Source: Gammaproteobacteria bacterium (GTDB lineage Bacteria; Pseudomonadota; Gammaproteobacteria; Methylococcales; DRLZ01). Taken from it: a DNA stretch of 39,628 bases. A program made the translations under genes and the position numbers. The number at the start of each line of letters is the position of its first letter. The first letter of the stretch is position 1. The stretch spans positions 1-39,628 of the forward strand of contig JAHZJL010000240.1 of NCBI GenBank assembly GCA_022600935.1, written 5' to 3'. The notes beneath the pieces are model-generated. The model saw only the letters and a list, made by a program, of their open reading frames with translations, was not told where the DNA came from and made no database searches. Below, piece after piece: positions 30,305-31,816 of the stretch.

Positions 30305-30580
30305 ATGACAACACCGATGACTCAACAGATAGTCCTTTATGGAACTGAAGGTTGTCATTTATGCGATGAAGCCAGAGATATTCTGGATATGGAATTAGCT
30401 GGGAACAACAGGAATATCGACTATCCCTATATTGATATTGTTGAAAATGATGAATTGCTGGAACGTTATGGACAATCAATTCCTGTGATACAGTTCATAA
30501 AATCCGGCCATGAGCTATTCTGGCCATTCGATATTAACGATGTAAGGAGTTTTTTAAGAAAAGAGATAGAGGATGGTTAA
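30305..30580 (+). CDS. glutaredoxin family protein
   Basis: LYGTEGCHLCDEARDIL; DIVENDELLERYGQSIPVIQF. Confidence 0.85.
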   Translation: MTTPMTQQIVLYGTEGCHLCDEARDILDMELAGNNRNIDYPYIDIVENDELLERYGQSIPVIQFIKSGHELFWPFDINDVRSFLRKEIEDG

Positions 30581-30688: not shown

Positions 30689-30705
30689 TGCGACAATTTG
30701 CCACA
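30689..30705 (+). promoter_or_regulatory. upstream direct-repeat element of sRNA copy 1
   Basis: TGCGACA-ATT-TGCCACA; 19-nt TGCGACAATTTGCCACATT is identical in copy 2, 22 nt between the repeat and TATAAT in both. Confidence 0.65.
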
Positions 30706-30727
30706 TTTTCTATTGGCAGTGAATTGC

Positions 30728-30733
30728 TATAAT
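30728..30733 (+). promoter_or_regulatory. -10 box of sRNA copy 1
   Basis: TGCTATAAT (extended -10), 7 nt before the conserved GACTGAGTT. Confidence 0.7.
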
Positions 30734-30740
30734 TACTATC

Positions 30741-30834
30741 GACTGAGTTGAAGCAATATTATTTTTGTTGCTTCTTTGCACGAAAGTGCATTTCCTCCTC
30801 TTGATGGCAGGGCGAAAGCTCTGTCATTTTTTTT
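30741..30834 (+). ncRNA. putative small RNA, copy 1 (about 94 nt)
   Basis: GACTGAGTT start; stem GAAGCAA/TTGCTTC; GCAC-GAAA-GTGC hairpin; open TTTCCTCCTCTTG; terminator TGGCAGGG..CTCTGTCATTTTTTTT; near-identical second copy downstream. Confidence 0.8.
30804..30834 (+). terminator. intrinsic terminator of sRNA copy 1
   Basis: ATGGCAGGG-cgaaag-CTCTGTCAT then T-tract; two G-U pairs. Confidence 0.8.
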
Positions 30835-30871
30835 GTCTTTTTTTCAGCTCAGGCTGTATTGCCTGATCTCA

Positions 30872-30888
30872 TGCGACAATTTGCCACA
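30872..30888 (+). promoter_or_regulatory. upstream direct-repeat element of sRNA copy 2
   Basis: TGCGACA-ATT-TGCCACA, identical to copy 1. Confidence 0.65.
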
Positions 30889-30910
30889 TTCCATCTTTTT
30901 TTTCAATTGT

Positions 30911-30916
30911 TATAAT
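30911..30916 (+). promoter_or_regulatory. -10 box of sRNA copy 2
   Basis: TGTTATAAT (extended -10), 7 nt before the conserved GACTGAGTT. Confidence 0.7.
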
Positions 30917-30923
30917 TTTAACC

Positions 30924-31012
30924 GACTGAGTTAGAGCAATGTGAATTGCTTGTTTGCACGAAAGTGCATTTCCTCCTCTTGGTGGCAGGGTTGGGAAACC
31001 CTGTCATTTTTT
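30924..31012 (+). ncRNA. putative small RNA, copy 2 (about 89 nt)
   Basis: GACTGAGTT start; stem AGCAAT-GTGA-ATTGCT; GCAC-GAAA-GTGC; TTTCCTCCTCTTG; terminator TGGCAGGGTT..AACCCTGTCATTTTTT. Confidence 0.8.
30983..31012 (+). terminator. intrinsic terminator of sRNA copy 2
   Basis: TGGCAGGGTT-ggga-AACCCTGTCA then TTTTTT; loop-proximal stem differs from copy 1 with pairing kept. Confidence 0.85.
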
Positions 31013-31142
31013 ATCTTTTCAAGATTCAGTTGTTCGATTGAGAAAGGGCAAGTGAATTCAGCTCATGATCTGCCAGTTCTTGTTTTATTGTGCTGGCTCG
31101 ATTCCATAAGAAATTGAATACTTATGTACGTTTAGCAAATAG

Positions 31143-31160
31143 CCTCCTCTTGACAGCAGG
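31143..31160 (+). repeat. degenerate third trace of the sRNA repeat
   Basis: CCTCCTCTTGacaGCAGGG matches CCTCCTCTTGRTGGCAGGG of copies 1 and 2; spacing 171 nt versus 178 nt between copies 1 and 2. Confidence 0.6.
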
Positions 31161-31204
31161 GTAATATATTCAATATTAAACTGCTTGACAGAAAACACCT
31201 GCCC

Positions 31205-31816
31205 TCAGGACGAAAAAGATACTCCAGTTTTATGAAAACCGCAATACCCATTCGGGTTTTTTGCTAAATATTGTTGATGATCCTGCTCAGCAAAGTAGTA
31301 AACCAGGAGAGGGCGAATCACTGTTGTCACTTCACCATAACCCGCACTGGATAAACGTTTTTGATAGTGCAGCCTTGACTGCTCGGCCTGTTCCTGTTGC
31401 TCTGCATTGACAGTCAATAGTATTGAACGATATTGGCTGCCGTTGTCATTGCCCTGACGCATTCCCTGAGTCGGGTCGTGAGCCTCCCAGAAATGGACCA
31501 ATAAGTCCTGGTAACTGATGATGCCAGGATCAAATACAATACGGACAACTTCTGCATGACCGGTTTTACCAGTGCAAACTTCCTTGTAATTCGGGTGCGG
31601 AGTGCTTCCGCCGCTATAGCCGACTGAAGTTGAATAAACACCGTTTAATTGCCAGAAATAACGTTCCGGCCCCCAGAAACAACCCAGACCCAGAACAGCT
31701 TGCTGATAACCGTCAGGGAAGGGCGGAATAATGGTATTGCCATTGACAAAGTGTGTTTTGTGAATGGTGAGAGGTTCCCAACGTCCGGGTAATGTAGCAT
31801 CGCAGATCACTGACAT
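31205..31816 (-). CDS. msrA: peptide methionine sulfoxide reductase A
   Basis: AVLGLGCFWGPERYFWQLNGVYSTSVGYSGG; FWEAHDPTQGMRQGND. Confidence 0.95.
   Translation of the reverse strand: MSVICDATLPGRWEPLTIHKTHFVNGNTIIPPFPDGYQQAVLGLGCFWGPERYFWQLNGVYSTSVGYSGGSTPHPNYKEVCTGKTGHAEVVRIVFDPGIISYQDLLVHFWEAHDPTQGMRQGNDNGSQYRSILLTVNAEQQEQAEQSRLHYQKRLSSAGYGEVTTVIRPLLVYYFAEQDHQQYLAKNPNGYCGFHKTGVSFSS

Follow-up and report, generated by a model that had tools for sequence, protein, structure and literature searches.

The occurrence of two tandem small RNAs (sRNAs) in a contig of a Gammaproteobacteria bacterium of the order Methylococcales (GCA_022600935.1, JAHZJL010000240.1) raises the question of which regulator recognises the sequence element shared by both of their promoters and what follows from its binding. 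The stretch analysed, hereafter referred to as the window, comprises 39,628 nucleotides, and TGCGACAATTTGCCACATT is present in it twice, ahead of two homologous terminator-ended sRNAs. Its recurrence, symmetry and genomic neighbourhood suggest that the element is quite probably a class-II-type binding site for the response regulator RegA, predicted to drive the twin sRNAs.

Promoter architecture in the window

The 17-mer TGCGACAATTTGCCACA is located on the forward strand at positions 30689-30705 and 30872-30888, and the gap to a TATAAT hexamer (30728-30733 and 30911-30916, respectively) is 22 nt in both copies, as reported in the initial annotation of this locus. Both -10 hexamers carry an extended TGn (TTGCTATAAT and TTGTTATAAT; TGC-TATAAT for sRNA 1 and TGT-TATAAT for sRNA 2), and a usable -35 element at 17 bp is found in neither copy (ATTTTC and ATTCCA), which upholds the earlier view of an extended -10 promoter devoid of a good -35. 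The identity between the two copies spans 19 nt (..CATT), which define box 1 (30689-30707), an imperfect dyad TGCGACA-ATT-TGCCACA with a conserved TT, and the identical box 2 (30872-30890); beyond these the spacer has diverged, again as first described. Box 1 is assigned from its sequence, its exact conservation in other families and the dyad consensus discussed below, box 2 from its sequence, and the two -10 elements from sequence and spacing, the spacing being fixed across genomes. With the transcription start of sRNA 1 placed by inference at about 30740, the box would be centred at about -43/-44.

The 17-mer pattern has two matches in the 3.9-Mb host genome, both of them in the window, against none for the reversed control, and the exact 17-mer recurs in other families of the order before unrelated terminator-ended transcripts; its occurrence is therefore far beyond chance. 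When up to two mismatches were allowed, 25 matches to the box were obtained in the host genome against 23 for the reversed control, and the only further near-match that looks real belongs to a third sRNA on contig C198, which carries a perfect palindrome (TGCGACAAATTGTCGCATT) and TAGACT at the same 22-nt gap. A genome-wide scan had been put forward as a way of defining a regulon, and in the host this delimits an exact regulon consisting of the two window sRNAs and this one paralogous sRNA.

Recurrence of the box across genomes

Comparison of the region with 60 relatives using BLAST identified the sRNAs in one genome of the same genus, and in five other relatives just about 26 nt of the box, ahead of unrelated sequence. 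A scan of named genomes was performed with TGCGACAATTTGYCACATT, in which selection was by the 19-mer alone and no -10 element was demanded, and at least 117 stretches were retrieved. Among the matches listed, box stretches are found in Nitrosomonas, Nitrosospira, Gallionella, Methylotenera, Methylococcales, Cycloclasticus, Porticoccaceae, Pseudoalteromonas, Amphritea, Mariprofundus and Desulfobulbaceae, among others, and a few isolated matches, such as those in Flavobacterium and Prevotella, are probably due to chance.

An unselected T41 A42 nn A45 T46 is visible in the alignment of the listed box loci. TANNNT occurs at offset 41 in 79 of the 118 distinct sites among the matches listed, all selected by the 19-mer, at offset 40 (the class of the window) in 11, and at any other offset in 0-6. 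Since the -10 emerges at one fixed offset without being selected, the box and the -10 constitute a promoter architecture, in which the box is centred near -44 in place of a -35 element. The initial annotation had staked its reading on the motif occurring at promoters elsewhere and in relatives, and the genome scans bear this out: the same word and spacing recur across other families, classes and phyla before unrelated genes, and at least one box-promoter is present in 114 of the 151 genomes of the order. Tandem box arrays also recur, since other genomes of the order hold box-promoter pairs about 170-220 bp apart (G512, contig C33, 3867/4039; G514, C143, 17929/18100; G504, C1, 196245/196465).

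Association of the box with regB and regA

The open reading frames of the at least 117 listed loci, which had been fetched by the 19-mer alone, were clustered, and two regulator clusters were found among the three largest, one of RegB-like kinases and the other of response regulators dominated by RegA, regBA being the recurrent regulator pair near these unselected loci. On reading, regB and/or regA were observed in about 21 of the 117 listed loci, and in most of these regB is divergent, with its start 20-165 bp away from the box. Across a fixed set of 229 genomes, RegA was detected (E < 1e-30) in 71 overall, in each of the 10 that have the exact box (p 5e-6) and in 26 of the 32 box-promoter genomes (p 3e-10), these p values ignoring the relatedness between genomes, with the sets drawn evenly. 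Among these 26 genomes, 13 have the box no more than 5 kb from regA, mostly at about 1.4 kb, which is the length of regB. Both co-occurrence and linkage across genomes are thus as expected of a RegA-family operator. A full RegA was not detected in six of the 32 box-promoter genomes, one of which (G255) has a RegA C-terminal fragment, and some box matches in genomes without RegA may have arisen by chance.

The host itself encodes a RegB/RegA pair, a 181-aa RegA and a 474-aa RegB, on contig C36 and hence on another contig than the window sRNAs; the best NCBIfam matches are ActR_PrrA and ActS_PrrB, at scores below the curated cut-offs (190.6 against 250 bits and 249 against 350, respectively). 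For the host RegA, a full-length alignment was obtained with 3rqi (E 4e-47), and its C-terminus aligns to 1umq, the effector domain of Rhodobacter sphaeroides PrrA (E 5e-11). Visual inspection of RegB indicated that the H-box AHEMGTPLGTM is retained, that the quinone motif is near-canonical (GGASNPV against the published GGXXNPF) and that a cysteine is located after the H-box. No box with fewer than three mismatches was found near the host's own regBA. A pmoA-family gene is present in the same-genus genome G001 and was not found in the host assembly, which is 85% complete.

Symmetry of the box and identity of its regulator

The element had initially been described as two direct half-sites with a 10-bp period, a description that did not withstand a wider survey. 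A pattern combining the fixed left half, a right half open at bases 13-15 and TANNNT at offset 41 was run against 369 Gammaproteobacterial genomes and listed 74 matches, against four for the reversed control. Every one of the 74 listed sites has C at base 14, and the right half reads TGTCGCA in 34, TGTCACA in 20, TGCCACA in nine and TGCCGCA in eight; the true direct-repeat right half, TGCGACA, was found in none of the 74. Given the invariant C at base 14, and with TGTCGCA, the most frequent right half, exactly mirroring the left half TGCGACA, the element is, on the sequences of these sites, an inverted repeat (dyad) and not a direct repeat; the window copy (TGCCACA) is an imperfect dyad, and its direct-repeat look is incidental. 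The flank CATTCC emerges unselected in the listed box-promoters. The odd spacing of TGYGA-N7-TCRCA does not fit a CRP/FNR-type site (TGTGA-N6-TCACA).

Comparison with the published RegA-family sites provides a second line of evidence. The RegA consensus is SSGNVRDNHYSNCSS (PMC5506826, PMC5359404) and that of RegR is GNGRCRTTNNGNCGC (quoted in PMC5506826), which the window box fits at 9 of 11 fixed positions, in line with a RegA-family operator. The ChIP-seq table for RegA of Rhodobacter capsulatus contains GTGACAATTTGTCCC at cydAB (PMC5359404), and an 11-nt core, GACAATTTGTC, is common to this cydA site and the consensus dyad; a literal search of papers for the box sequence returned incidental matches, this ChIP paper excepted. 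Like the sites of RegA, RegR, PrrA and RoxR, the box is a dyad of odd length, and its symmetry centre coincides with theirs. Unlike the alphaproteobacterial RegA sites, it is far less degenerate, with a near-invariant stretch of about 17 bp followed by CATT, and unlike the published RegA-family sites in general it is locked 22-23 nt from the -10 and is seen in Gamma- and Betaproteobacteria and some Desulfobacterial lineages. The published RegA motifs are degenerate and vary from one species to another, for which reason a motif search in Acidithiobacillus failed (PMC5506826). What appears to be new here is thus a sharp, putatively RegA-type box whose geometry is rigid and whose output is a new sRNA family. 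RegB/RegA is a global redox regulator; if the assignment is true, a box of this kind, which can be recognised in Gamma- and Beta- as well as some Desulfobacterial lineages, would make RegA regulons predictable by a simple sequence search.

The box might instead belong to a different regulator, for example a copper or redox sensor that simply accompanies regBA and copper genes, as many of the downstream genes are metal-related, RegA is undetected in six of the 32 box genomes and the RegA sites in the literature are degenerate; however, with regBA as the recurrent regulator pair near the listed unselected loci, a box symmetry like that of the RegR sites in the literature and the same core in a RegA ChIP site, this is unlikely. 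It is also improbable that RegA binds the box and represses both sRNAs. There are precedents for repression by this family, such as the cbb3 genes of R. capsulatus, repressed by RegA (PMC5359404), and coxB of Pseudomonas aeruginosa, repressed by RoxR according to the literature, but the lack of a -35, the rigid spacing to the -10 and the centre near -44 are all as for a class II activator. The initial suggestion had likewise been an extended -10 promoter with an activator site; its fixed distance and missing -35 are observed, and on their strength activation is the probable mode.

An OmpR/PhoB-type winged-helix response regulator on two direct, 10-bp-phased TGCSACA half-sites would account for the 10-bp period of TGCGACA/TGCCACA in the window copy, and regulators of this type often stand in for the -35 element. 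The direct-repeat/OmpR model was nevertheless rejected on the half-site statistics, half-sites in the same orientation being found in none of the 74 listed sites, in which the invariant C at base 14 and the commonest right half point to inversion; the recurrent neighbours, moreover, are RegB/RegA, with a Fis-type HTH and not one of the OmpR type, and the model is considered very unlikely. That the box identity is a functionless leftover of a recent duplication has next to no probability, clear as the tandem duplication of the two units is, since the 19-mer has stayed identical next to a diverged spacer and the word and its spacing recur across families, classes and phyla.

Structure and conservation of the sRNAs

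The two sRNA units are clear tandem duplicates, both on the forward strand and with inferred starts. sRNA 1 (30740-30835) consists of two stem-loops, an unpaired UUUCCUCCUCUUG and an intrinsic terminator, and sRNA 2 (30923-31013) has the same architecture; both fold better than every shuffle (z -5.0 and -3.7, respectively). A covariance model was built from five founding copies (two from the window, two from G001 and one from host contig C198), and it matches three sRNAs in the host and two in G001, with scores of 112.6 bits for sRNA 1 and 103.2 bits for sRNA 2. In another family, it has one match per genome in five genomes (E 5e-5 to 8e-3), all of which possess two tandem sRNAs, each with a box and a -10, adjoining a divergent regB; the RegB of this family and that of the host are 46-48% identical across 394-427 aa in the four alignable genomes, and in the fifth (L232) the RegB start was read in the DNA. 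Covariation lends support to the structure: in the alignment, which was fitted to the model, 89% of the cells are paired against 35-48% when it is slid, and 14 pairs have changed on both sides.

The unpaired UUUCCUCC is invariant in the five founding copies, and the unpaired UUUCCUCCUCUUG segments at 30791-30803 in sRNA 1 and 30969-30981 in sRNA 2 are candidate seeds by virtue of the fold and this invariance. Many non-homologous box-driven transcripts of the Methylococcales likewise carry CCUCC or UCCUUCC before the terminator. Rfam families above the gathering score were absent from the window and limited to CRISPR repeats in 20 box loci. The predicted transcripts have their own promoter, a conserved structure, a terminator and no long open reading frame, as do trans-acting sRNAs. 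A search of the genome with the 13-nt seed complement CAAGAGGAGGAAA, allowing up to one mismatch, revealed no convincing ribosome-binding site close to a start codon.

The C198 copy (L133, 1369-1519, reverse strand) looks functional and lies beside a gene for a small membrane protein, to which no family was assigned. A third, decayed copy (CCTCCTCTTGACAGCAGGG), devoid of a box or proper terminator, comes after the two sRNAs in both genomes of the genus (window 31110-31195; L004 1041-1122, reverse strand), with about 73% of the columns in agreement. On the opposite strand, a glutaredoxin-like gene (30305-30580) and an msrA-like gene (31205-31816) border the sRNA pair, both recognised by eye and both with thiol-redox functions.

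PcrZ of Rhodobacter sphaeroides is an sRNA dependent on PrrA and FnrL (PMC8139620), and the present sRNAs resemble it in having a promoter with a site, here a predicted one, for a RegA-family regulator. Unlike PcrZ, they are tandem, have a CCUCC loop and lie beside regBA in relatives, the likeness drawn here being one of regulator. RyhB and PrrF are metal-sparing sRNAs, and PrrF is a tandem near-identical pair. The sRNAs described here are like them in being placed, by prediction, under one regulator and in having a conserved single-stranded segment, and unlike them in regulator, signal and sequence. A literature search for RegA-driven sRNAs in methanotrophs retrieved no reports.

Proposed mechanism

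With RegA as the preferred regulator, the 17-19-mer (dyad consensus TGCGACANNNTGYCRCATTCC, near -44) would be a high-affinity class-II-type site for RegA, the Fis-type response regulator of the RegB/RegA (PrrBA/ActSR/RoxSR) redox two-component system. The quinone pool or the redox state of a cysteine would activate RegB, and phosphorylated RegA would then bind the box, replace the missing -35 element and recruit the sigma-70 polymerase to the extended -10. Both terminator-ended sRNA copies would consequently be transcribed and expose the unpaired UUUCCUCCUCUUG, which may pair with purine-rich ribosome-binding sites and act as an antisense; such pairing at ribosome-binding sites is predicted to proceed through UUUCCUCCU.

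Other genes preceded by the box

A TonB-receptor plug domain was found in 32 of 77 proteins encoded downstream of the boxes. TIGR01778 ('TonB-copper') is matched by 18 downstream proteins, none of the three members examined in detail reaching the cut-off, and SCO1/SenC, NosL, PepSY_TM, YtkA-like and MbnH-like proteins are also encoded downstream. This repertoire suggests that the outputs of the box concern respiration and a metal, which is probably copper, the substrate of the receptors being putative. The two kinds of output, namely the terminator-ended sRNAs of methanotrophs, some of them beside regBA, and the metal-acquisition genes, were not found described together in the literature consulted. 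It is possible, if doubtful, that RegBA and the tandem box-driven CCUCC-loop sRNAs represent an ancestral module of methane-oxidising Gammaproteobacteria, in which redox or copper stress, sensed at the quinone pool, would through one and the same box elicit both the transcription of metal-uptake genes and the sRNA-mediated silencing of costly cuproenzymes; if true, this would be a respiratory/copper counterpart of the iron sparing by RyhB and PrrF.

In the Nitrosomonadaceae, boxes (L066, L021, L097, L012 and L048) precede a gene for a small, possibly bufferin-like protein and genes for YcnI-like, MbnH-like di-heme and BNR-repeat proteins, in part recognised by eye, and a copper regulon is suggested by this set. 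In Desulfobacterial/deltaproteobacterial genomes, the boxes (L033, L044, L062, L098 and L122) stand ahead of nitrate-reductase-delta-like, C_GCAxxG_C_C and NosL genes, which represent another kind of output of the box. A CRISPR array (CRISPR-DR4; L121, 5337-7954, reverse strand) was also observed near a box locus in a metagenome-assembled genome of Nitrosomonas.
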